NCBI GenBank assembly: GCA_019096065.1
Contig: JAGUCH010000008.1
Coordinates: 3,229,001-3,293,000, forward strand
Length of the DNA stretch: 64,000 nt
Direction: 5' to 3'
DNA from: Paracyclopina nana
Lineage: Eukaryota; Arthropoda; Copepoda; Cyclopoida; Cyclopettidae
Shown here: one piece after another, positions 4,169 to 51,454 of the stretch
Layout of the letters: each line of letters begins with the position of its first letter
Position numbering within the stretch: the stretch's first letter is position 1
Notes under the pieces: model-generated
What the model saw: only the letters and a program-made list of their open reading frames with translations
Database searches by the model: none
Told to the model about the DNA's origin: nothing
Position numbers and translations under genes: made by a program

Positions 4169-7100
4169 ATGTGCTTGGTGTTGCTGCTGTTGCCGCTGTT
4201 GTTGTTTTTGTCGTCCCCGGTGACAAGCGACCCTGAAGCGTGGTCGTCGTCGCTACCCCGGGGCCAGCAAATCACCAACGCTCAGCAAGGAGGTGGTCTT
4301 CTCCCCTTTCCAGAAGGTAAGCAAAACCTTTGTTTCTTGCCAATTAGCAATGTCCCATCAATTCTGATCTCGGGGAGGAAATTAACTTCGTGATGACGAG
4401 GAGCAAAAAAAGCCACCTTTTCACACTAGGCAAAAAGGTCTTGAACTTGTCCGTTTCGATACGCATTTTTCCTCGCTTTTCCCCAGCTGAGAATTGCGGA
4501 GGGCTTGGTCGCGCGATGCTGACAGCTTCATTTAGGAGATAAGGCTGAGTCTCATTTAGGGCGCGAGTTGTAATTATATTTCGAAAACCGCAAAGATACC
4601 AACGAGACGCAGGTGAAAACGGGTAAACAAAACAGTCATTGGAAACAATAATCGTCGCCATGCAAACATCCTCACTTGCGGACGAGTGACAGCGTTTACG
4701 ATTCTGGGAACAAACCATAATAACTATTACCATCGTGGATGTCCAAACTGGAAAATTATGGCTCGTCTGGTCGCCCGAGGCTTCCGCAGACGTAGAAGAG
4801 AATCCCTGTCATTACAAACAACTTTTGCTGAAAAGCACAATGATCATTATTTTGCCATCTCCTGTCTCTCACCGGGAGTCAATTTCTTCCTGTGATTATC
4901 ATTTTTCGAGAAGGAAAAGATCGCGTTGGAAGAGGTCAACAACGTCTGTGACCAATTTATGCACGCGCGTGTACATCGATCTGCGACCTCTGGCTCTCGC
5001 TGCAAAATTGCCTCAGTTGAGCAGTGTGAGAAACAATTCCATAAGATAGTGCAATTGTTCTCAAAACCACAGAGCGAGAAGAATTCTTTGCCATTCACCG
5101 AAAACTGATTGCTGTTGGCCATTTCCACCCTGCCCATCCCACTATTGTTGGACAAATGAGTGTCAGCTGAATTATTCAGCATGCTGGTCACACGCAGCAG
5201 CAGCAGCAGCAGCCTGGCTGGGCCGGTCAATCAATCCAACTGCCCGCAGGTGTCTTGTTGTCCTCGCTAATCCCTTGTCTTCACACAATGATAATTGTTG
5301 GATGGTGGTACAATATTTTTTTCCCTCAGCCATCTACCCAAATCCTGACAGAAGTCATAATAATCTTGATCCTATCTCCAGATTGAGTCATTTTTAGGAG
5401 GGCCAGGAAATCCATTCAATTTCGGAAGGATGAGTGTTTCCCAAATCCGGAATAAATGCAGATAAAAGAGTTTTAGCTGCAGCGCTATTCAATTCTGCTA
5501 CTAAAGTTGGCAGTTATAAATACCTTCCCCGTCATCATCAGTGTGGTCAGTTTTAAATAGGATCACAGTGTACTACTAAGCTTTTTGTCGCAATTTTACC
5601 CCTTCTATTCACTGCGTAACGTAGGCAAGTCTCCCTAATCTCTGGCCACATCTTTCTGAAGTCATCTGCATGACATAGGCATCTATAAAGCCACCGCAGA
5701 TCCACTCTGGGAATGTGCTCCCATAAAAAAGAGCCCCAAATGGGGAACCGACTGTTCAGAGCTAAAACGACACCAAATGGCGAGGTTGTTGTTTCGCATA
5801 TTTTGTGAGTGTGTTTGTGCTCGAAATCCCTCAGTGTGCTGAAAGGTCTCATGGACAAGCTCATAGAGCAATGCTGGTACTGTGTCACTGTCACAAACCC
5901 TTTGAGAAACTTCTGCTCTTGCCAATTGTGCGCGGGGACTCGCATCATTTCATTGTATTTCGAATACACCGCAAATGAAGCAACTTTCTGCTGCCTCCAA
6001 CTCCAATGGAGATTTATAGTCAAAATGTTAAGATGAATGGGCTTGAACTCACTTTCCAGACTGCTGATAAGAAAGCTGGAAAAAAAGAAGCAGTGTTTCA
6101 CTCCTCCTTCTTGCGCTATCTGATGATGTTTTGTTCGCAGTTACCAAGCCTTTATAAGCCTTGTAGCTGTGTACACCTTTTTCTCGCTGCCCATCGTGAC
6201 ATCTCTCGTGAAAAAGGGAGATTTGCATGGAGGAATGAGAAGATGTCCAAAACGATTATTGTCAGCATCAGAAAAAAGCCTTTGCGCTCTTATCAGCAGT
6301 AGTAGATCTTTTGTTGCGAAAAACGAGGACATCTTGGTAGAAGCCATTAAAGAGGATCTTGTTGATGTTCCAAGTGCATATATGCTATGCAACAGCATCA
6401 ATGATGCAAAGGCCAGCACGTACCACTCTTGGTCAAAATAAAATAGCGGCCCTAAGAGGTAGTCTTGATTTTATGGCAGATATTATCATCCAATATTATT
6501 ATGTGCCCCTTTGAAATGCATGTTTTGAGGGGAGAAGAAGCCCAGTGTGCACCAGATCAGCTGGTGAGCGTTGCACATGTTGTGCTATTATTAAATTACA
6601 CCTTAGTATTATGCTGCTTCTGATGATGGAGGGAGTTCCATACTTTGTTCTCTCGCCATTCTCCTTTTTCGCCGCTGCTGCTGCTGCTGCTGTTGCATGC
6701 GCACGTGTGTTTTTCTCTAATGTGCGATCGATAGAAGACAATCAGCATAAACAAAGAAGGGATCGCATGGTTAGCCACAATTGAACGCAAGCTGGCGCTG
6801 CCAGAGACGACACGACCAAAAATGAATTTCTGCTTCGTAATCCCTTTGAACAAGCATTGCTGCTATGTAGCAGTGGAAGGAGCAAAAAGTTACATTTATG
6901 GCCAGACAGTAGTCGGCCATTTATACATATTTTTATTGCTCAGTAGGAGCATACGCGAGTTAATAACGCAAAATGCAAGATTCCCTATTTTGCAATAAGG
7001 GAATTTCTTTATTTTTGGTCCGATTTGGGCGTCGCGGGTAATGCTCAAAAGTTGCTTGTTTTTAGCGCTCTCTGTCATTAAGAGTGGAAGAAACCGAAAC

Positions 7101-10100
7101 GAATTTTCGACACCTTCCAGCCACCCACATCGTCGTCGTCGTCGTAATTCTCCATTTTGAGCGAGTCGTTCGCCATGATGTTTGGCCACCACCGGTGAAT
7201 TGCTGGTGTCTCTTCTGCTATATAGTAGAAGGTGGTGCAACTGCGCCGCGCGTTCTGCGGAAATGGGCCATTCCATTAGCATTCTTTGGCGAACATAAAA
7301 CGAAACAAATGTTGCCTCTTTAGCTATAAATTAAGCGAACCCTAGCAAACACAAGTTTTAAAGCTCAATTTATTGACCTGTTAGGGTGGCATAAAAATTG
7401 AAGGCTTTTTACATGGAGTAGCAGAGCTAAATTGGAGCTGACACTCATTTTTCTTCTCTTCTCGCACTTGGTGAATTATGGTGCTTGATGAACAGAAAAG
7501 GGGGGATGACACAGTGGGGGCCACAAGTGCCGAAAAAGGGCTAATGTTGTGACCAGTGGGGATCGATATGAAGTGAAAAAGTTTGCTATATACCACTCTC
7601 TTCGTTGAGTGGTGCGGGGCTCGAAATTAAATACTTCCAGTGTGGCACCAGTCCTCTACTTTTGGAAGTGCTTTGTGAACACTTGAACCCTGCTAACCAA
7701 AGGTACTCATTACACCATTTTCGTCTTTGCTTTGGTGGGTGGTGAATTGCTTCGATTTTTTCCCACCGCCATGTTCCACACGGACACACAGGGAGTAATT
7801 CTGCTTGAAAAACGACACAAAGCCTCAAATCATAGTGTACCCCTGTGTGAGCGCCATTTTCTGTGCGTGTGAGCTTGTGAAAAAAGGAAACTTCATTCAC
7901 GCCCTTGGTAATTGGGTAAATTGGTCGGAGGAGTGAATTTTGAAATTCCAAGATGGCGATGATGATGAAGAAGAAGATTCTTGCAGAAAGTGCATTTTCC
8001 TGACTACCCCTTCGAACTTTGAAAGCAGCCGACAGCAGAAGCGGCAGACAAATCAAATTGTGGCTTTGATGAAGCACAGAGATAACATTTTCCGCGAAAT
8101 CTTGTTAAATCATGACATGCATGGCAACAAAGTTACAACAACTCTGATTGTGTATAGAACTACCAAAAGCACAACGGGGCCAAGTAATGAAGCAAGAGCC
8201 CAGGTTTTTCCTATTAAAAAAATATAAGTGTGCTCTAGAACTCTCTAATAAACTAGGTCGTCATATATCTAGGCAAAAAAAAGTTAACCTCCTTGGCGCA
8301 AATCCTCAATCAAGGGAGCCTTCGCAGCGTTGGCTTTGACGTTGCGAAAGCACAGTGGGGCAAAAATGCGGCAATCTCCTCATTGGACTCCACTTCCTGC
8401 GACCTTTTCCATCCAGGCTCTCATTGTGACGTTTGTAGCATAGAGATCAAGTTTTGCGGAAAAGAGCACAAATCCTGGAAGATCTACCGAGCTTCAATCT
8501 TCTTGAGTGCTCAGTTTACTTTCATGCACATCAAAGGAGGAGAAAACTTGACGACGATCTAGTAGCACTTTTGGTCACGAATCCGCCATATATTCTTTAA
8601 AAATGCACGACTTTTTGCCTCCACGCAGCTATGGGGTGAATTTCCCTTTTAAAGCACAGTAATAATTGTAGCATGCGAGTTCCCAATCAAAGCTGGTTTT
8701 TGCTCGATTTAATTGGCCTTCTAATATAATATAACTCCGTCGTGGGGCCCTAATTTAGTGCTTAATCACCCTGCTCGATCTTTATAGCCTTAATTTTACT
8801 TGAATTGCAGGTCGTGGTCCTGATGGCACCCTTTACAAGACGGACTACCGCTGCGAAGGGGAAAACATGACCGTTTCGTGCCTCGATAGCGATGGTCCCG
8901 GCCTTCACGGAACCATCCAAGTGGTGAGGGGCAACTTTGGCCGATTCTCCATCGCGATTTGCAACAGGCATGGCCAAACTGATTGGAGTGTCAACTGCAT
9001 GGCCCCGCAAACCACTCGAGTTCTCCAGCAGCAGTAAGTGAATTTTCAGCAACGGCCGAAAAAAGGCCTAATTAGAGCTGATTGATGTGAGTTGGCTCAG
9101 CAGTTGGGAGAAACTTCGTTTGCCCCAATCGAGAGCCGACTAAATGGCTCTTTTGTGCAAACTTCAGCCTCGCATGAAAAGCAGTCATTTTTGCGAAGAA
9201 GACCCTTTAATCAAGCTGATGTTTGAAGCAGCAGCTCCTGTCATTTTATGACGAAAAGGCTCCTCCTGGCCAAATTATTGCTGGCCATAAAGCACACTGG
9301 GCTCAACTATTCAAACCCTCGCAAAAATACCTATTTTTGCTGCAATATTTCTGCGTAATTTTGCATTTTTGCATTTTGGTGTTTTGGGCGGTATTTTACC
9401 CCAGTGTGCCTGTGTGCAAGATTGTTGTTGTTGCATGTTGCTGGCAAGGACTGGAACAACTGTAGAAACAGAGACGTTAACGTAGGTAATCTCCTTAAAG
9501 ACTGAGAAGTCCAGCAGCAGCAGCAGTCGACAACAACAAGTGCTCGTCGAGAGAGATTGGAAAAAGGAGATGTCTAAGAGGGTTAGTTAGGGTTTTGTTG
9601 CTCCACTCCAACTCCTGTAAGGTGACACCCCCTTTACTGCATCAGTAATACTCTTCATGGGAGCACATTAGGGATGAAATGACAAACATATTGCCAGAAA
9701 TCCAGACTTTATGGGAGCAATATCCACGCTGTAGCAGCAGCCACTCGTACTTGTTGTTTACGAAATGTAGCTACAAATTCTTGTACAATTAACTTTTAAC
9801 TCCCAGCTCAGCTGACCTTGCTGTATGAATTGCTCATGTCACCTTTCCGCATAACTTTTAACTGATTTCACGACTCTGCACGAGAGCAATGCCACGTAGT
9901 ATATGCCAGAAGTGGGCTGTTAAAGCAGGCTGATTTCTGAGACCTTTTCATGGTTTCATTTATACACTAAACTGAGTGGAATAATGCAGAAAGTAGGAGC
10001 TAGGGGCTGAACGTTTTGTCACGCTAACTAACGAGGGCTAAATTGTTTTTGCCAATGTAAACTTGTTGACATTCTGCCCTGAAAAGAAGACTGGCGAGGG

Positions 10101-13100
10101 TCACTATTATCACCGTCTCAAATCTCTTTCTCTCTCTTTAATTTAGGTGCGACGGGTCCAAACACTGCGTTGTTCCCGTGAATTCCGAGCTCTTTCACGA
10201 CGCCTGTCCAGGCACTCACAAATATCTCGAGATCCATTATGCATGTCTCACCTCCGCCAGTCCCATGGGCGCGCATCAGGGAGGCCAAAATGGCCGCAAG
10301 GCCCCGGCCTTGCCACCCTGGATGTTTGAGCTGCAGGAGGCCAGTCCCACAAACAGCAAAGTTAATACGGCTGTCGTGAACAACAATATCAGCGCTAATA
10401 ACAAAGAAACCGCTGACCAAAGCCTCGCCGAGTCCGCAGCGGCCATTTCGGCCTCTGCTTCGGCCTCCGCTGAGGACGAGGCCAGCGCAAGCAAAAATGT
10501 CAGAAAGCCCATTCTAGTCACGGAAAAGGTGGAGCTGGAGAGGCGGGTGCCCATCACCACGCCCAGGCCGACCACGCCCTCGACAACGACTCGGGCCTCC
10601 ACCACGACCTCGACCACGAGAGCCTCGACCACGACCTCGCGTGTCCCCCTGAACAAGAGCCAAAAAGTGCTGGTTTCCTCGGCGAAATCCACCCTGGCCG
10701 CTGCTGGGCCCGCAAGCTCCGATCTCGATCAAGGTAGGCGCTTTTGAAAGTTTTCCAATATCTTGAGCTCTGGCTTTTTGAATCTCGAAGGGATCGTAAA
10801 ATTGAAACCATGGCTTCTGGAGATAAAGGCTGGCTGCTGGGGAAACATTTGCGGTATCTTGGGGCTCGACTCAGATCTAGGTCATATCCTACCTGTATTT
10901 CAGCTTTTTTTTGGTAGTGCTCGAACTTGATATAGATAATTCTTGCCCACTTGTCACAAAGCCAGCTGAAGTAGTGAGTTGTTGAAAAGGCATCAATTTT
11001 CAGCCTTAATCTGCTGCAGCTGAGGATTAGTCGGCGGTGAAATTAGAGCGAGCACAATTGTAAGCACTTGAAGGCGGAATACCTTGAAATATTGAATATT
11101 TTCTGTAGTGGCTGGTGGCCAAATCCCCCATATAGAGGGAAGAAGTGGATTTGCAGAATCCATGCTGCAGGTCACACCGTAGAAGTACACGCATATATTG
11201 CAGAAGCATTGAAGATCTTCTTCAGTTTGATGCCAGATTGTGCACCAGCTCCGCTCTTTTATGGCTTTGCTTGGCTCAATTTTGCATTTGAGCTGAAAAA
11301 AGTTCACACCAAGAACAAGGCTCGTATGACACGCGCCATCTGCTTTCTAATAAGAAACTTTATGGTGGGAATGCCATAAAAAGTGATTCATGGCTCAAAG
11401 GGGGGATGTAGTAGGTAGAATTGTCGTCAGAGCTTTTTTCTCCCATTTCCACAGATGAAAGCGCTTTAAGCGTATGTATTGACGAGAGGCAAACTAGGCG
11501 CAATTTTCTGCTCCGTAGATCAAAACAGATTGCTTTTTCATGCCTATATAGAGGCAGCAGTATTTACTGCAGTTGTATTATTGGTAGATTTTCCGCAGTT
11601 GCCTACTTTCGCACGCTATTGTAGCGACGGCGAAAAAAAAATGGTGCACAAAAGCGCGTCAATGGATATAAAGAGAAAAAGCCAGCTGAAAATGTCGACA
11701 CGAACAGATGATCTGTGTGGCAAACTGACTGCAATCTTTTTGGAAAAGTGCCTCCATTCAAAGGTTTGTTACTCTGGTGATGTACGAGTCCTTGGGAATG
11801 TTGCAAAGAATCGTAAAAGCACGGAAAAATAGAGGCAAAACTTTTTTCAGCTTCCTACTTGCCAAAAGAGGAAAGCATAAGCTTGTAGCAGTGGCCCTTC
11901 ACTTTTATGCCAAAGTGTCGACAATCTAGAGTGTCATTCTTCGATTTCGTGCGGGAAATGCTAAAGGATTTTTTTTGTGCGGCTGTCCTTCCATCTGAGC
12001 AAATCTTCATATTCCATTTCGAAGCGAGGGCTTTTCGGCCCCGATTTGGCGTCAAATTGGACCAACAGCTTTCCCAGCAACCTTCTCTGCACAAGGTTAA
12101 TTTGTTCTCGTTAGAGAGTTGCTGCAGTCTAACATTTTGGGACTCTAGCTCACGTTCGCGTTTCACAATTACTAGACGTCGAAGTTTGCTGTAATGGCCA
12201 AGAACGCACACTGAGCTTGCAACACAATAAAGCAGCCAGGGCTAAGATAACTCTCCTCCTCCTCCAGCTTGAATACAAAAATTCTGCAATCCCACTTAAA
12301 ATGGGATCAAGAAAGGACCGGGAATTCCATTCATTCCCGAGGTGGAAAGCTTTCTCGTAGACAAAGAGAAATTGGCCAATAGGCCAATGATTTATAGCCT
12401 ATTTTCTTCTCAGCCTTCGCCGCGCAGCCCTTTTAGAGACCATGGCTGAATTCAGATAAGGGAGACAAATGACCTCGAGGCGCATAATAATCGTGTAATT
12501 TCACCCTGCAACAGCTGAGCACACTTCTATGATTTTGATTCAATTTGCAGACAAGCCGCTAAACACGCCGATGGATGTGTACGTCACGCCCATGACGGGC
12601 GCACCGGCGTGCCAGCCCGTGACCGCGCGTCAGCTGCAGTGGAACTGGACGCCGGCGGGCCAGGTCGCCTTGCAGCCCTGCCCTATAGGCGCTACTGGGC
12701 TGGCGCGCTGGTACTGCCAGGACAGCCCCGACCAGCCCACGTGGCAGGGCGACGCACCTGACATGAGTGACTGCAAGTCGGTGGCCATGACCAATTTGGA
12801 GTCTCAGGTTCGTCAAGAGGACCCCGAAAATGTCCTCGTGTCCTCCTTGGCATACTTGACGCGCACCAAGTCCCTTTATGGCGGAGATCTCGAGGCCGCT
12901 GTGGCCATCATGAGGACGGTGGCCTCTCGAATTCAATACCGACTTCAATCCTCGTCGAGCTTTCACGACAAGGTCAATCACATCCGCCAAGTCCTGCTGA
13001 ATGTGCTCCGCTCTGCGGCCAACATTCTGGAGGCCGGGCCCAATCGCGAGGCCTGGCTGGACCTCAGCGCCGACCGGCAAATGAAGGCTGCCACCTCACT

Positions 13101-16100
13101 CATGCTGGCCTTGGAGGAGAACGCGTTCCTCCTCGCAGGAGTCACCAAAACGCCCGAGGAGATCCTTGAAACCTATGAAACATTGAGTAAGTCCTCCCTT
13201 TTTTTCGGATTATTGTAACAGCAGCCTCGTGCTGAGGCTGGTGCTCACAGAGCCGTAAGTAAGCGAAGAAAGCCATTCCTCACAAATTGGGCACGATATT
13301 GACAGGCCCCCGACGTCGAGTAGTAGAAATATTACCAAAAATATGTTAAATTGGCCTTTTTTTCCAGCCATGACCATCAAGGTCCTGCGTGTGGGACATC
13401 AAGCCGAGGCCGAAGTGACGTTCCCCGCAAAACCGCTGCTGTACGTGGACGATAAGATCTCATTAGCAGCCTCAGATCTCGAGGACAACTCTCAAGGCGG
13501 CCTCGGCGAGGCCGTTTTCTTCTCGTATCGCGGCCTCCATGAAATCCTCTCGGGGGCCAAGACTCACTTGTCCTTCGAGGACGAGGACAGCCCAGTCGAT
13601 GCAGGCAAATCCTGGAGGCTCAATTCTCGCATCATTTCGGCCTCGCTCGGCCGAGGCCGGCACATCGAGCTGCATAGGCCGGTCACGATAGAGCTGAGAC
13701 ATATCAACACCGAGGCCGGAGTTTTGCAGGAGCCAGTGTGCGTTTTTTGGGACTACGAGGTGCACGGGTGGTCGGACAGCGGCTGCCAATTGATTGAGAC
13801 CAATCAGACCTTCAGTGTGTGCCAGTGTGATCATCTCACGAATTTCGCCCTTTTGATGAGGCCAATCACGGCCTCGCCTCTTCTCACGAACGTGAGGCTG
13901 GACATTGTGGCCTACGCGGTGACCTCAGTGGTTCTGCTCGCCCTCCTGATCATCCTGTTCAAGGTAAGTGTCGTGTAATTGTGTCATGATATATGGGCAA
14001 ATATTGACTGTGCTACCTGAAGCAGTAGCAGCCTGAAAGCCCTTTATATTTACCAGTGGAGTGCTTCGCTTTATTTCAAAGCTTTGAGAAAATCTTCCGG
14101 AGGAACTTTTCACAGGGGATATTATTAAACTAAAAGGTTCCCTCCTCGTTGCTTCAGTATTTTCTTAAGCAAACAAAGTGCAGCTAAACACACCGAGGCA
14201 AACAGTTTTTTTTCTATGTGTAGCAGCCAAATTAAGCTTCGCGTAATATTAAAATATGGGGTCACATTTGTCTGTGCTCAGCTCTCACTATTACAATGAA
14301 TGGCACATTACCTCTAATAGGCACTATGGGGGCTGGCTTTTTTCAAGGTCTCCCCTCTTAAGTGGGACACTTTCTAAATTGGTTGGGGTTTAGCCCAGTG
14401 TGGCATGTTGCTCCTGGCAAATATTTGTAGCATATAGTGGAGCGGCTGCCTTTTGAGCTGAGGTGAGTGGTGGAAATGGAATGGTAAACTCAAATGGCTC
14501 TTTGAGTTGACATTTCATGGTTGCTTTACTCAATGCAAAGTAAGTTGGTAGGCAAACAGAAAACAGAAAATAAAGCGCAAGGAGTCGAAACAAACGACCC
14601 TTTCAGCTACACAGTAAACCCTCCCTTTTTTCCGAGCTCATCACGCTGAAAATGCCGCAAAAAGCCTTCGTGAAAGACAAACATTTGCTTTAGCAGTTTG
14701 CTTGCTCAAAACAGAGCGAAAAAGCCCTCCTTTGATACAGAAGTGTGTTCACCTAAAAACACAATTATTGGAGCTGCAGCAGTAAGGAAAATCTTCTCAG
14801 TTACTTGGAAGTAGAGAAAGGCTTTTTTGCTCGTGGATAGCCATCGAAACCGCCTTTAATCAGCTTTTCTCTGGCCTTGTTCAATTAGTCACACGCGAGT
14901 GACACAAAACGTAGGTGTGCCAACAAATACACATAACAGCTAGGCATTTTCACCAGTAACTCTACTTTTTAGCTCTATATCAGCACGTAATAAGGGAAAA
15001 AACTATTGAAGTAAAGTGAGAGCTTTTTTCTGTCAGTGGCAGAAATATTTTCTAATATCGTTGTTTTTCCATAGATGCGGAGTCGAGTGAAGAGCTGGTG
15101 CCAAGGCTGCCACTGCTGTTGTTCCGTCTCCATGAGCGACAAAGAACGACGGACGATGGGGCATTTGGAGAAGTGCCAGAGCTTTTACACTGGTTTGTCT
15201 CAGGGTCCACCCTCGGGACCAAACGGGCCTGGAGCCCTAATGAGTGGATCTGCCAAAAAAGCCCGAACTTTGGGAGGGCCCCACGGCATCCTAACTTCAG
15301 GCCTCACGGGAGCCAACTTTGCTGCCAATACCACCTCCAGGGTAATTATTTTTTCACTAGCTTCTTCATGATGTCAGAGCAAGTCATTCCTTGAGAGATA
15401 TCATCAGCCAAAACAAACACTTTATAGCATGATGCTGCCAGCAGCTATTAGGATGGCCTTGGGCTCTGCGATGTAGATTACCATGCATGTGGCACAAAGA
15501 TGTAATGATCAATTACACGCGTATATTGAGGGCGACATAGAGTTTTAATTTCTTTTTAATTTTCGGGCATATTTTGAGGCTTGCCTAATTTTGACGTATT
15601 TGCTTGTGGGCAAATAGCAGAGGAGGGCGGCTTGTTTTTCGTAGAGCGTAAACTAATCAGTCAAAGTGCGATGTCAAAACTTTTTCATCCTCCTTGAGAA
15701 AAAAATGGTCTTTAATCATCATTGTGTAGAAGTTTAATACCTTATCTTCTCGCCAAAGGGCCTGCCTGCTAATTTATCTTGTAACAGATGCTTCGCAGCC
15801 CTTTTTCGGGCAAATGACTTCGCAGCAGGCATTTAAAGCCCCCCTTTTTCAAATATAAAGCATAAATTAAACATGGCTGGGGATGGTATCTTACTCTATA
15901 AGTGTTTTCCTGGTCTCTCTCACAGTGGAAGGAAAACTTATGATGGAAAGTAGGCAAAACTGTATTTGGGCCAACTTGAGACCTGTCAACGTGGGAAAAC
16001 AGGCTGAAAAGGAGCTTAGCAGCTAGAGCGCGCCTACTTTGCATAAGAGTTAGAGACTTGAATGTTTAGCTCGGTAAACTGGTAAAATCGTACGTTGCTG

Positions 16101-17217
16101 TGTGTATACAGTCTGAAAAGCGGGCTCAATCGACCTCGAGAACGACCTCAACTTTTTCTAGTAATGTGACATCAGCAGAGTGCCAAGGAAACTTTTCCCA
16201 AAAGAAGTAGAAGACGACTCCACCACCACCACCGCGCAAACTTTCTTCAGTAAAATATGACCAATTCCCCCTCTTTTATTGCAGGTTCCTGGCACCTCTC
16301 AATATATTGACCAAGGAGGATTTAGAACGCTGAGCTCCACACCCTTGATGATGATGACCAAGCCGCGGCCTCACATCACGCTGAATCCATACAGCACGCA
16401 ATTGGTGGACAACTTGAACATGATGATGCCGAGCAGCAGCAGCAACAACAATTCCACCAATTCCAATTCGAGTGCCTCCACCAACTCAACCAGCCTTGGC
16501 ACTCCTCTCACCCAAAGTCAGCTCATGAGCCCTCAGCTCATGAACCTGACCAACACGCTGAGGAGGCCGAACCACCCAGCAGCTCAGCATAATAACGAGG
16601 TTGTTTATCGCGCTGTGAGTCCTCACGGACACGTCTACTGGGAAATAGACCCTGCACAAGTCTACGGTACGCACGGTATCAACAACAATGAGGAAAACGT
16701 GGCTCTCCTCGCTCAGCAGCAGCAACATCATCATCATGCTCAGCAGCAGCCTGTCTCGCGACCTTACTTAACCAGTCGCCACGGGCAGCTGACAGAGGAA
16801 GATTTGCTGCTACAGCAGCATTTATTGGCCTCAGACCCCGCTGTGACCAATGGACTGCACGACTCCATTAATGGGCTGCAGCATGTGGAAACCTTCCAGC
16901 CTGGCATGGTCATGATGGCGAGCTCGTCCTCTTCTTCCAATGGAAATAACAACGCGGGCTCATTTGTGCGGACGGGGGCGAACCGGTTCACCCGAAAGCA
17001 GCAGTCTTCTCAGCAAGCTCAGCAAGCTCAGCCTCAGCAGCAGACTGTGGCCACCGTGTCGACCTCGCAAGCCTCCAACGTGCCCGAGCAGCTCCAGACT
17101 CAGGTGCAAATCAGAGATATTCGGCCCATTCAGGTGTCAGTGAAAAGCAGTGAATACATCGAGGCTAAAATTCGCACGTTGCGACGAGGCGGCAACAACA
17201 ATCATAGTGATTCGTGA
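4169..17217 (+). CDS. Latrophilin-like adhesion receptor with a single transmembrane helix (SUEL lectin-HormR-GAIN/GPS-1TM)
   Basis: Exons 4169-4316, 8811-9033, 10147-10733, 12551-13186, 13368-13963, 15075-15341 and 16285-17217 join in phase (1,2,1,1,0,0) to encode 1129 residues. The start gccaaaATG opens a signal peptide (about 1-20). Residues about 55-160 form a SUEL/galactose-binding lectin domain with paired cysteines (C64, C73, C125, C131, C144, C157), followed by a Ser/Thr/Ala-rich stalk. Residues 340-395 are a hormone-receptor motif (WYC, PDMSDC). The GAIN domain ends in a complete GPS: C656, W659, W666, C671, C683, C685 and HL|T at 687-689, predicted to self-cleave. One helix follows at about 709-729, then a Cys cluster (WCQGCHCCC) and a 400-residue Ser/Asn/Gln-rich tail. 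Latrophilins normally carry seven helices; no frame for TM2-7 is seen in introns 5 or 6. Membership of the latrophilin/Cirl group is well supported; the 1TM form is read from the sequence, its function inferred. Confidence 0.88.
4317..8810 (+). other. Intron 1 of the latrophilin-like gene (4.5 kb)
   Basis: It begins gtaagc and ends ttgcag, separating the signal-peptide exon from the first lectin exon. It holds a CAG run at about 5196-5215, a GCTGCT run near 6673-6692, and long antisense open frames (5553-6101 and 7586-8077) that show no domain and no splice structure. Nothing else is supportable. A first intron this long may hold enhancers, but I see no direct evidence of one. Confidence 0.6.
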
Positions 17218-27778: not shown

Positions 27779-29191
27779 AAATCCGGATTCCTAAGCACTT
27801 CTTAAATGTGAAATACAACGTTCATTTTTCAAGATACATTTATACATGCTAATATGTCGAAAAGGCTTTTGGAATTTGAGAGCATTCGGTTACACTAACT
27901 TTCTAATCACTATCAAGATCCTTTGTAGGAGCACTAAAACTCATTTTAATCCCAGAGTTGTCATCCACATCCCCTTGAATATAAAACCATCGTGTCGCAA
28001 CTTACAAACACAAGCAGACTTATGTCCAATGGTTTTCTACATTAAGTACAAAAATGTGAAAATTCAAGCTTGATTCCATTGACGTGAGAAAGTAAAAAGA
28101 AAAAGTTAAAAACTGGAAGGCTGTCATAAGTGAATAGAATGCTAAAAAAAAATCCATAAATGTCTTATTGTCACCACGGACAACACCCTCTTTGTCTTTC
28201 ATGGTAAAGAAAAAGAAAGGCTTCCTGTAACAGCCAGTTATATGGGAAGCAGGGTAGAAGTAGCTAGGTCAATTTATGGCTCGAGTCCATTTTGAAAATT
28301 GGTTCTCACGTAGCTACTGCTATGGCAGTCGTAGTTCCAACAGAATTTTGCCAAGCAGAGCTTCTCCTGCTTTCATATGCAAGCCAGATTTGCATGGCTT
28401 GCCATATAATACAAGGAAAATGCGCATCTACTTGAGAGTGGACTAAATTGCATCAAGATGGAAATTCATTGCAAAAAAGCCATAAAATTAGCTATTTGGT
28501 TTCAGTGATTGCCCCTCATTAAAGTCACCTAGACCATGTAAGTTTTGACTTGTTCATGCCTAAAAAAAGAGCATGGATTTTTTTTCTTTTGCTCCTTTTA
28601 GAAGATGGTGGATTTTTTTCTTATGCTCCTTCTGGAAGATGGTGGATTTTGATGGTAAAAACTTGTGAAAGTTCAATTGAGTGCACTTCACCCATTAAAG
28701 ATTCCCTCTAGGAATATGGCTTTTACCCTTGCTCTCCTCCTTATTCTGTGAATTTTCTTTTTATCGACATAAGACTTTCCGAAAGGATAATGGCGCCGTA
28801 AAACTAACTGGGCAGAAAAAGTGCCTGCTGCCATTTTGCATTTCATGTTTCCAATTTGCGCGCGAGCTGACTGATGACAAAATAGCATATCTTGATATAC
28901 TGGAATTTTCATTAACGCAAGCAATGACCGCACTCCGGCTATCTTTTCAAAAGCTTGCAGCAGTTTTTGCAGTTTTGTGAAAATCTGGAATTTTACATGA
29001 TAGTAGGGCTGGCTCGCACATGGGTCACGCGCAGTGTCGGTGTCACTCTCAGCAGCTTCAGCTACCTGAGGGCTGAGAGACTGTATAGAGCTAAGACGCG
29101 ACCTGGCTGTTGACCGACGCGCTCCTTAATTGGCCTCAGCAGACAGCAGCTAACAAACATTTCTCACACAAGAAAACTCTCAATACGGGAT
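27779..29191. other. Intergenic DNA
   Basis: No gene is supportable. The only structure I see is a short tandem repeat of 35-bp units at 28574-28655. Confidence 0.5.
28574..28655. repeat. Short tandem repeat, 34-35 bp unit
   Basis: Two imperfect copies of a unit beginning TGGATTTTTTT, passing through GCTCCTT and ending GAAGATGG, are followed by the start of a third (TGGATTTT). The copies differ at a few positions. Confidence 0.7.
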
Positions 29192-30748
29192 ATGGAGGAG
29201 CCCACCGTTTTTCAATTGGACTACGAGCTGCCGAAGGACTCTATCAAGAACTGGCTTGACAGAAACTCAACCAACCCTCCAAACCTATCTGTCTTCCACT
29301 ATGAGTACTTCAGCGTTTCCCTCCAGCCCAAGAAGGGCGACCCTCTCAACATTCATAAGGATAGAGTGCCAGTTTTGGTGGTAAGCAATTCCACGATGGT
29401 GCCACGAGGCCAGAGTGTTTGCTTACGATCCTATGATGAATATGTCCAAATGTCCTCGTTCCTCAGACCCTTCATCAGACAAAATCAGTTTCCCTCCATT
29501 CCCAAGATGAAGAGAAGTGAGCAAGAGGAGAGCATTTTGGCCTTTCTCAAGTGGTGCGGATCCTACGGGGCAATTATACAAAACGTGGAGGTCCAGCTTT
29601 TTATCTTCACCCTCAAGCCAGTTGAGGAGATCATCAAGTGTTTCAATGGCGCCGACAAGAGAAGACGAGCACCTAGCAGAAGTGAGGTTTTTAATTCGAT
29701 GCCAAAGACAATGCTGCCACACGAGGAGCCATATTTGGTGGACATGAGCCTGCGGCAAATGTTTGACCATTCCAGCCTTGGCATGACTGTGGAAATGGGA
29801 GTCGATCCTCTGCAGGATGGAGTTTCGTTGGAAGATGATGGCATTGATTACCGTCATTTCAAGGAAACTTATCTCGCGAAATGTGCTCCAACAATCATCA
29901 TTCATCCAGAAGACCAAGAGCTGTAAGCATTTTCTGCCATAAAAGTACTTTAGAAAGCATTGAATTTTTTCCTCTCCAGATTCCCTCGAAGAACTGCGAG
30001 GTCCATCAAGATGAGCCATGTGGAGGTTCATTTTGCTCAGATGATCAACAACATGGTCATTGCTCCAATGCTGGAAACTCCAGAAGAGTCCGTGCCAGCT
30101 TGGGAATGGGGCGGATGCAATGATGGCTCATCTTGCCCTCTTCATTCCATGAATGAAGGCCTCATCAGAAGCTACAGGGAGAAAGCACTCAACAAATTTC
30201 ACCAAGGCATCTTCAGTGATGATTCAGACTCACCAAATGAACTCTTGAAGCATTTGCCTGCTTTCCCACTGAACCTCATTTTCACTCAAATCAGGAGAAA
30301 AGGTAATCATTGGCAGTATTTCATTAATTGATTGTTGCTAATTTGAGGCTTTCTCATTGCAGTTGTGAAAAAGCCAAAGAAACCGGTCATCAGAAAGTGC
30401 AAGCTGCATGCTGATGTTTCAAGACAAACCATCAGCCCTCATGCTAATACAGCTCGGTCAAGAGCTCAGAAAGAAGAATCAATTGAAGTTCTTGATGTGG
30501 AAGAAGTTCACTGCTCAGAAGATGGCAGAAATTCACCAAGCTCCAGCTCACTTTCGTCATCAATGGCAGTCCTGACCAAGGAGGACTCAATCAGGGCGGT
30601 TGCCGCAGTGGTGACGTCAGATGACAGATCGTCTTTCGCGTCCATCTCCGAACTTCCTGAGCTCGAATCAACCCGAAAGGATGACGGTGAGGACTCGAGC
30701 AGCTTTGGTACGGTATCATCTGGCGAGGAGAAAAAATTTGCAAGCTAA
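29192..30748 (+). CDS. Orphan 479-residue protein, probably soluble
   Basis: Exons 29192-29922, 29980-30302 and 30363-30748 join in phases 2 and 1 over 57- and 60-bp introns with good GT...cag sites, giving 479 residues. I do not recognise the family. There is no signal peptide or membrane segment. Residues about 1-350 look globular with many aromatics (FHYEYFSVSL near 35, AWEWGGC near 285). Next comes a basic stretch (KKPKKPVIRKCK, about 354-365) that could act as a nuclear signal. The acidic, serine-rich C-terminus contains SIEVLDVEEV, which fits the hydrophobic-then-acidic pattern of a SUMO-interacting motif (inference). The long first exon, splice-phase agreement and even codon use make this a confident gene with unknown function. 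Confidence 0.8.
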
Positions 30749-50677: not shown

Positions 50678-51454
50678 ATGGGAGTGAAGAAGCTCATTTT
50701 CTACGCAGTCAACGGCCCTCTGTTCATTTGGGGCCTCCTTATGCTCCATGTGGGCTATCACGTAAGATATTGTTTTGTTGCCATGTGGCTTCGCCCTGCA
50801 ATTATCCTAATTAATCTGTAATGACAGCATGGATTTCGAACGCCCGGTCCCATGCCAAAAGCCTATTGGCCTGAACACGTCAAGGATGACATGAAAGCTG
50901 CCATCATTGCCAATCGCAAGTTCATCATCGACGACCTCAAAAGTATGTTCAACGCGAAGCTGGATTACAAGAAATTCCTGCAAACTCGCGCCACTGAAGA
51001 CATAGTCTTTGAAGATCCTCTGGAGAGATTTGAGGGCATGGAGAGCGTCGGACACTTTTTCTCCATGGTCAAGTACTTTGATAATTTCCAGTTCAAAATC
51101 CACGACGAGGTGCATTCCGCTCACGAGGCTCTACTCGACTGGGAATTGCAGGTAAACCTTTTTTCACGAAATGCTGCAGGGATTCTAAGCCTTTTTTTCA
51201 CTCTCAAGTTTGGATTCAAATTCTGGCCTACATTCCGGATTAACCTGCCCATGCGAACGCACTTGTTGTTCGAGCCTCCGGAAAAGGGTGGCAGTGCCGA
51301 GAAGATATTCCGGATTGCCGAGGATTGGTTCGGTAACGAGCAGTTAACGGAGAAAACGGTGAGATTTTTTCCACCCTTGGGAAAAGTCCACCAGAGCTTA
51401 CGAAACTTTATGGGCACAGTTGTTGTTTGGCCGGTGAAGAATGGCTATTTGTAA
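50678..51454 (+). CDS. Membrane-anchored protein with a probable NTF2/SnoaL-like domain
   Basis: Exons 50678-50761, 50828-51151 and 51209-51454 join in phase 0, giving 217 residues. Residues about 5-25 are an uncleaved hydrophobic anchor (LIFYAVNGPLFIWGLLML). The rest resembles the cone-shaped NTF2-like fold seen in SnoaL and DUF2358-type proteins: a helix with a D-Y-x-x-F step, VFEDPLERFEGMESV, then alternating strands (FQFKIHDEV, LLDWELQ, RTHLLFE) and a closing helix. The ligand or reaction is unknown; many relatives bind small hydrophobic molecules. The second intron (57 bp) is a multiple of three and free of stops, so its retention would add 19 residues. AATAAA lies only 20 bp after the stop. 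The gene model is firm; the fold assignment is moderate. Confidence 0.65.

Follow-up and report, generated by a model that had tools for sequence, protein, structure and literature searches.

Single-pass latrophilin orthologues of the copepod Paracyclopina nana probably arose by loss of TM2-TM7 from the gene

Latrophilins are studied as G-protein-coupled receptors (GPCRs) and as adhesion molecules, and which half of the protein does the work is hard to tell. Forms with a single transmembrane helix (1TM) are already known as splice products. Those of Drosophila Cirl are reported to result from intron retention in a gene that also makes the form with seven helices (7TM; Bormann et al. 2025, Cell Rep 44:115078, via PMC13197933, PMC11043342), and the two forms are described as apparently pairing via the ectodomain and signalling through G-alpha-o (PMC13197933). 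The N-terminus-only variants of C. elegans LAT-1 resemble 1TM latrophilins in their 7TM-independent function but are reported as minor transcripts (~1.5%) and mostly not membrane-anchored (PMC11540312). Here we analyse a latrophilin (Cirl/ADGRL) gene with only one transmembrane helix from the copepod Paracyclopina nana, located in a window of 64,000 nucleotides (bases 3,229,001-3,293,000 of contig JAGUCH010000008.1, assembly GCA_019096065.1; hereafter contig C8, with positions given as those of the window). What is new is that the 1TM form of a latrophilin orthologue is fixed in the genome itself, that it ends in a tail of the 7TM type, and that it occurs in several copies and in copepods identified by name. 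Among open-licence papers we found no report of a gene-level, multi-copy 1TM latrophilin orthologue with a 7TM-type tail in copepods.

We consider it likely that this gene is a single-pass orthologue of Cirl at the gene level, derived by loss of transmembrane helices 2 to 7 (TM2-TM7) before its lineage parted from those of Tigriopus and Lepeophtheirus, and duplicated thereafter; the loss event itself and its mechanism we infer. The gene occupies positions 4169-17217 of the plus strand and encodes 1129 amino acids in seven exons (Table 1). Its product runs from a signal peptide through a SUEL lectin domain (two exons), a Ser/Thr-rich stalk, a hormone-receptor motif (HRM), GAIN and GPS (HLT, with the expected cleavage point between L and T) to a single transmembrane helix and a tail of ~400 residues. 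It is thus larger than the three exons described in a first-pass annotation made from the letters alone, since it begins at 4169 with a signal-peptide exon joined in phase to exon 8811-9033. This junction reads FPE-G-RGPDGT, with the counterpart FPEGQAHDGT in Tigriopus record P0003, and exon 2 matches the same record at 65% over 75 residues. GPS, both GAIN parts and the second lectin half scored above the Pfam cut-offs (22.5 bits for GPS, 26.5 for GAIN and 31.4 for PF02140); HRM fell narrowly below its own (25.0 versus 26.2 bits), and the first lectin half, taken alone, was also under the cut-off (16.2 bits). The closest solved structure to the GAIN region is latrophilin-1. The description of a GPS exon that ends after TM1 and is followed in phase by two exons for a hydrophilic tail held: exons 13368-13963, 15075-15341 and 16285-17217 have AG/GT boundaries, TM1 (IVAYAVTSVVLLALLIILF) has a hydropathy of 2.88, and the tail is free of further helices, its top 19-residue stretch scoring just 0.61.

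By its SUEL lectin domain, its HRM-GAIN-GPS module and its common descent with Cirl the gene belongs to the ADGRL/Cirl family, and it lacks the seven-helix domain PF00002 (7tm_2) of the adhesion GPCR (class B2) receptor type. Like arthropod 7TM latrophilins, it has the order lectin-HRM-GAIN-GPS-TM1, the HLT site in GPS, the position in the tree and the tail motifs; unlike them, it has no TM2-TM7 match and stands in seven copies in the P. nana genome. With the Drosophila 1TM isoforms it shares a latrophilin ectodomain on a single helix. Those isoforms are reported to come from a 7TM-capable gene, whereas no 7TM option was found here. The two traits of a Drosophila-type 1TM isoform, a gene that also encodes TM2-7 and a tail devoid of the 7TM-type motif, are both absent: no match to such helices was found in the gene, and the tails of the window type share descent with 7TM tails and contain the motif.

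Could TM2-7 have been overlooked? An ordinary 7TM latrophilin whose exons for these helices were missed or misassembled, so that the 1TM reading would be an isoform, might be suspected from the 1TM isoforms reported for Drosophila Cirl (PMC13197933, PMC11043342) and from the existence of dipteran-type 1TM records. We regard this as very improbable. The window contains no N, and introns 5 and 6 hold, as noted at first pass, no plus-strand frame of at least 60 codons; the longest stop-free runs are 56 residues in intron 5 and 51 in intron 6. The whole genome was searched (92 Mb on 10 contigs, C8 being that of the window gene and C6 that of six paralogues). With 46 of 46 candidates scored, the six-frame search for PF00002 yielded 35 matches, none of them on C8, introns 5 and 6 included, or on C6. 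The 7TM part of damselfly Cirl used as the only query matched 22 times, again never on C8 or C6. When the query was a full Penaeus 7TM latrophilin (34 of 39 candidates scored), 32 matches resulted; those on these two contigs stopped by query residue 691, covering ectodomain and TM1 only. Missed TM2-7 exons in introns 5 and 6 were ruled out by the PF00002 and damselfly searches together with the short stop-free runs, and none were found elsewhere on C8. In addition, all seven genes of the genome show the 1TM form, two of them without an intron at the junction, and the named relatives show the same. Nor do the tail exons belong to another gene, a candidate ruled out by alignment: record P0001 combines a GAIN domain and the same tail in one protein, 51% identical to the window protein over 443 alignment columns. 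The first-pass view, in which the 1TM build is a property of the gene and differs in this from the fly isoforms of a 7TM gene, is supported: the tree and the named relatives, the paralogues and the searches of the whole genome all agree with it.

Searches with lectin, GPS and Penaeus latrophilin revealed six further lectin-type latrophilin genes (A-E and G), all on contig C6, which brings the genome to seven. All six have a GPS-bearing frame with a single hydrophobic segment after GPS (6/6 by hydropathy), and the presumed tail frames of genes C, D, E and G contain no further hydrophobic segment. In genes A and B, GPS, helix and tail lie in one open frame, so the 1TM form is independent of any splicing choice there. 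The frames of gene G matched lectin and HRM in Pfam, with no match to GAIN or GPS. A stretch of ~145 kb (C6:4557765-4702591) holds four of the seven 1TM genes, A and B on the plus and C and D on the minus strand, as if this cluster had arisen by local duplication.

HxS/T is given as the canonical GPS cleavage motif in PMC13062082. HLT is kept in the window gene, B, C and D, and not in A, E and G, where RLA (A, L029/L030), SLA (E, L044 6027-6710) and GLS (G, L049 2962-3858 minus) take its place. Records P0011 and P0012 of Lepeophtheirus salmonis have RFS at the cleavage site. Because of these degenerate motifs, the sequences suggest that self-cleavage may have been lost repeatedly within the 1TM latrophilin family.

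The tail links the 1TM genes to 7TM Cirl. We compared tail profiles of the B type, the A type and the window type with those of 13 arthropod 7TM Cirl tails (4 of the 17 chosen 7TM records yielded no tail by pattern). The hhalign scores were 134 (E-value 9e-18) for the B type, 121 (7e-17) for the A type and 71 (7e-9) for the window type, against 12.5-16.8 for reversed alignments and 25.6 for the top of 40 column shuffles. By eye, the motif order SP-NH-Y-EI, DPVYE, SDxSDED, SRQSS, RPLI is kept in the A and B types and, to a lesser extent, in the window type. Also by eye, A-type genes resemble the stretch that directly follows TM7 (LYKFISSGHIPCLKCSD versus YRKFIRRHSWLPKCLRCSK). The exact motif SPxxHxYxEI occurred in 23 of 25 copepod-type records, in 53 of 190 7TM-type records (defined by at least five hydrophobic segments after GPS, and many with short or other tails) and in none of eight dipteran-type 1TM records, whose tails measure 18 to 404 residues and are in some cases too short for the motif. 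Six of these eight are named as mosquito or sand-fly and two are of no stated species, none being D. melanogaster; in P0028 (Anopheles), two touching hydrophobic stretches were taken as one helix. Since the 1TM tails and the 7TM Cirl tail are homologous, TM2-7 would have been lost between TM1 and the tail, and removal of TM2-TM7 with TM1 and tail retained would be the simplest reading. A dipteran-like isoform was ruled out by the homology to 7TM tails and by the absence of the motif from the dipteran-type 1TM records.

The 1TM architecture is common to Tigriopus californicus (three proteins) and L. salmonis (two). When the window protein was used as query, the top 12 of 32 matches had no 7tm_2, the species named among these being T. 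californicus and L. salmonis, and the first named 7TM match was from a beetle. With gene B as query (120 of 333 matches listed), the first nine were devoid of 7tm_2 and included the third T. californicus protein, TCAL_12812; the tenth was damselfly Cirl, with 7tm_2. A single helix after GPS was present in 25 of 25 copepod-type relatives, counted over the whole protein in P0188 and P0193, neither of which showed a GPS pattern, and 19 of the 25 keep HLT. Five of these records bear a species name and 18 were assigned by similarity; the remaining two carry a Tk label, which we take to stand for Tigriopus kingsejongensis. Conversely, none of the 12 lectin plus 7tm_2 records of no stated species among the listed matches had a copepod-type best match in the ectodomain. 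Conservation of this architecture across arthropods, raised at first pass, was not borne out: it is shared with Tigriopus and Lepeophtheirus, and 7TM Cirl records exist for insects, Artemia, Penaeus, Hyalella and Limulus. An AlphaFold model of P0001 (15 sequences; mean predicted local distance difference test score 59.7, HRM-GAIN mostly confident, tail mostly <50) contains one long membrane helix, residues 434-475. Its best PDB match in Foldseek was 4dlq, latrophilin-1 HormR-GAIN, with a target TM-score of 0.86.

A separate 7TM latrophilin had also been proposed as worth a search, and a lectin-less paralogue was read on contig C1. This best 7TM match of the genome (5,902,215-5,907,045, minus strand) was modelled as HRM-GAIN-GPS-7TM with 730 residues. 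The lectin search gave no match near it, the far upstream DNA being unread. The records most closely related to it, from L. salmonis and Daphnia, are lectin-less, and the closest solved structure to its 7TM is ADGRL3. Identity between its GAIN and the window protein is 24% over 195 residues and 36% over the 88 around GPS. It belongs to a set of lectin-less ADGRL-like 7TM receptors (with L. salmonis P0033, Daphnia P0037 and spider records) that resemble the window gene in HRM-GAIN-GPS, read in the C1 gene, or in GPS, found with 7tm_2 in its relatives. They differ from it by having no lectin match, seven helices and a clade of their own. In a 7TM-only tree of 32 rows, the C1 gene and L. salmonis formed a group (92/79) that lay among lectin-less receptors (81/83). 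Its membership in the pancrustacean and millipede Cirl 7TM group was rejected (approximately unbiased (AU) test: P=1.6e-6), and it was dropped as the lost half of the window gene.

For the ectodomain, we built a tree of 51 HRM-GAIN-GPS sequences over 383 columns. It comprised 22 copepod-type rows, five of them from the P. nana genome; left out were genes E and G, with incomplete GAIN models, and eight copepod-type records out of the 25. All 22 copepod-type rows lie within the arthropod lectin-Cirl clade (support 100/99), whose other members are mostly 7TM. Lectin-less 7TM receptors fall outside this clade with the exception of P0086 (Penaeus monodon), which clusters with Penaeus Cirl; it is probably a partial Cirl record and was dropped as a lectin-less receptor.

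We judge it probable that copepod Cirl lost its GPCR core at the level of the genome before Tigriopus, Lepeophtheirus and P. nana split, leaving six or seven single-pass receptors with a self-cleavage module and the 7TM tail, and no lectin-bearing 7TM latrophilin. Several points weigh against such a history. The copepod-type rows split into two clades, a window clade (100/100) and an A/B clade (99/98); branches of good support require two changes, and a single change appears in only 3% of the 200 bootstrap trees. The 1TM form may therefore have arisen twice, once in each clade, a live rival that we hold possible but somewhat doubtful. Holding all 22 rows together cost 4.5 log units and was not rejected (AU test: P=0.155), TM1 followed by a 7TM-type tail is kept in both clades, and the window clade, with its long branch (0.92), is liable to be drawn towards the base. 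Thus, a single loss is possible but unproven.

Other points concern the data themselves. The copepod-type records P0188 and P0193 have no exact tail motif, a close variant being present in P0188, and a frame beside gene D, probably intronic, has one more weak hydrophobic stretch (1.78). The gene model was built from genomic DNA alone. An RNA-level hint for the 1TM form may come from P0012, which carries a TRINITY transcript name, and from P0001, which is probably a cDNA because its 867 residues are encoded on a 2753-base contig. The main loose end is a second latrophilin-like 7TM fragment (C1:6590675-6591985, plus strand), 35-46% identical to three stretches of damselfly Cirl 7TM, near which lectin and GPS searches gave no match; the fragment itself is unread, and it may represent a detached Cirl 7TM.

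We propose that the DNA encoding TM2-TM7 disappeared from the gene of a lectin-bearing 7TM latrophilin, whereupon TM1 would have led into the old cytoplasmic tail, and that the 1TM gene was later duplicated into a family. The ectodomain would be displayed on the cell, the GAIN domain of the window protein would cleave itself between L and T of HLT, and the N-terminal fragment would bind a partner on another cell. Two loci in the genome encode a Tox-GHH domain, presumably that of teneurins. Proof of a latrophilin-teneurin interaction in invertebrates is described as lacking (PMC6422961). Binding or pull may be relayed to the tail, which would act via recruited proteins and not by G-protein coupling, and copies devoid of HLT would work uncleaved. 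Cleavage of a 1TM form is plausible, since for a 1TM truncation of human ADGRE2 a cleaved fragment and arrival at the surface were reported, the extent of cleavage not being quantifiable (PMC12488864).

An adhesion receptor that signals via its tail is the function that the sequences make most likely, at about an even chance. Since the tail motifs were kept after the seven-helix core had gone, the tail probably has a function independent of G-protein coupling through the same protein. Partnership with another 7TM receptor would come next, and such an additional role would be compatible with tail signalling. That the 1TM products are obligate partners, pairing with the lectin-less 7TM receptor from C1 as in Drosophila, seems rather unlikely to us. 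Heterodimers of 1TM and 7TM Cirl are reported for Drosophila (PMC13197933), and a 7TM HRM-GAIN-GPS receptor with latrophilin-like 7TM is present in the P. nana genome and in L. salmonis. However, the fly pair has a common gene and ectodomain, whereas the C1 7TM gene has no lectin match nearby and a GAIN just 24% identical, and a conserved, retained tail would be superfluous for a pure partner.

A decoy role, also suggested at first pass, would mean that the protein merely competes for latrophilin ligands and that its tail is inert. Such a ligand sink would suit an intact lectin-HRM-GAIN ectodomain whose G-protein-coupling core is missing, and LAT-1 of C. elegans is reported to have functions that need its N-terminus only (PMC11540312). 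A pure decoy is argued against by tail conservation and is improbable: the tail has long conserved blocks, for example 35 residues at the C-terminus that match L. salmonis at 88.6%, and tails homologous to 7TM Cirl are kept in two clades.

The copepod 1TM lineage resembles a natural deletion of the GPCR half of latrophilin; if our reading is true, a GPCR subfamily would have been turned into single-pass receptors. Known splice products serve the 7TM form of the same gene, whereas the copepod 1TM latrophilins would stand alone or need a different receptor, a question that is testable in Tigriopus and the salmon louse.

Table 1. Features of the window gene (window positions) and locations of its paralogues on contig C6
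Feature	Position	Strand	Details
Exon 1: start codon and signal peptide (MCLVLLLLPLLLFLSSPVTS...)	4169..4316	+	donor GT at 4317
Exon 2: first half of SUEL/rhamnose-binding lectin domain	8811..9033	+	half domain taken alone: PF02140 E 0.014, 16.2 bits
Exon 3: second lectin half, then Ser/Thr-rich stalk	10147..10733	+	PF02140 33.2 bits, cut-off 31.4
Exon 4: HRM and GAIN subdomain A	12551..13186	+	HRM 25.0 bits, GAIN 53.8 bits
Exon 5: GAIN subdomain B, GPS and TM1	13368..13963	+	GPS 58.3 bits, GAIN 30.4 bits
GPS cleavage motif H-L-T	13832..13840	+	expected scissile bond between codons 13835-13837 and 13838-13840; read from sequence
Sole transmembrane helix, TM1 equivalent (LDIVAYAVTSVVLLALLIILF)	13898..13960	+	hydropathy; AlphaFold model of relative P0001 with one membrane helix
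Exon 6: juxtamembrane, basic and Cys-rich (MRSRVKSWCQGCHCCC), then proximal tail	15075..15341	+	in phase; aligns with P0001 tail
Exon 7: distal tail and stop codon	16285..17217	+	TGA 17215-17217
Tail block HITLNPYSTQLVDNLNMMMP	16372..16431	+	similar stretch in P0001, P0002, P0003, P0004, P0008, P0009
Tail block VVYRAVSPHGHVYWEIDP	16600..16653	+	counterpart of RSxSPWNHTYxEI in 7TM Cirl tails
C-terminal block VPEQLQTQVQIRDIRPIQVSVKSSEYIEAKIRTLRR	17080..17187	+	88.6% over 35 residues to L. salmonis P0004
Gene A	C6 near 4.558-4.561 Mb	+	one 837-residue frame, mid-lectin to tail
Gene B	C6 near 4.604-4.608 Mb	+	one 576-residue frame, GAIN through helix and tail
Gene C	C6, lectin 4.647 Mb, GPS 4.641 Mb	-	
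Gene D	C6, lectin 4.703 Mb, GPS 4.694 Mb	-	
Gene E	C6 near 3.237-3.240 Mb		
Gene G	C6 near 1.392-1.397 Mb		

The juxtamembrane stretch of the window gene (15075-15125) is rich in Cys, as it is in P0001 and P0003 (CQGCHCCC, CCTKACCCC, CCCCC), and less markedly so in the A/B clade; it is possibly palmitoylated. Elsewhere in the window, a plus-strand open frame of 270 residues (29114-29923) had no Pfam match, and another of 209 residues (50825-51451, plus strand) gave weak SnoaL-like and DUF2358 matches below the Pfam cut-offs.

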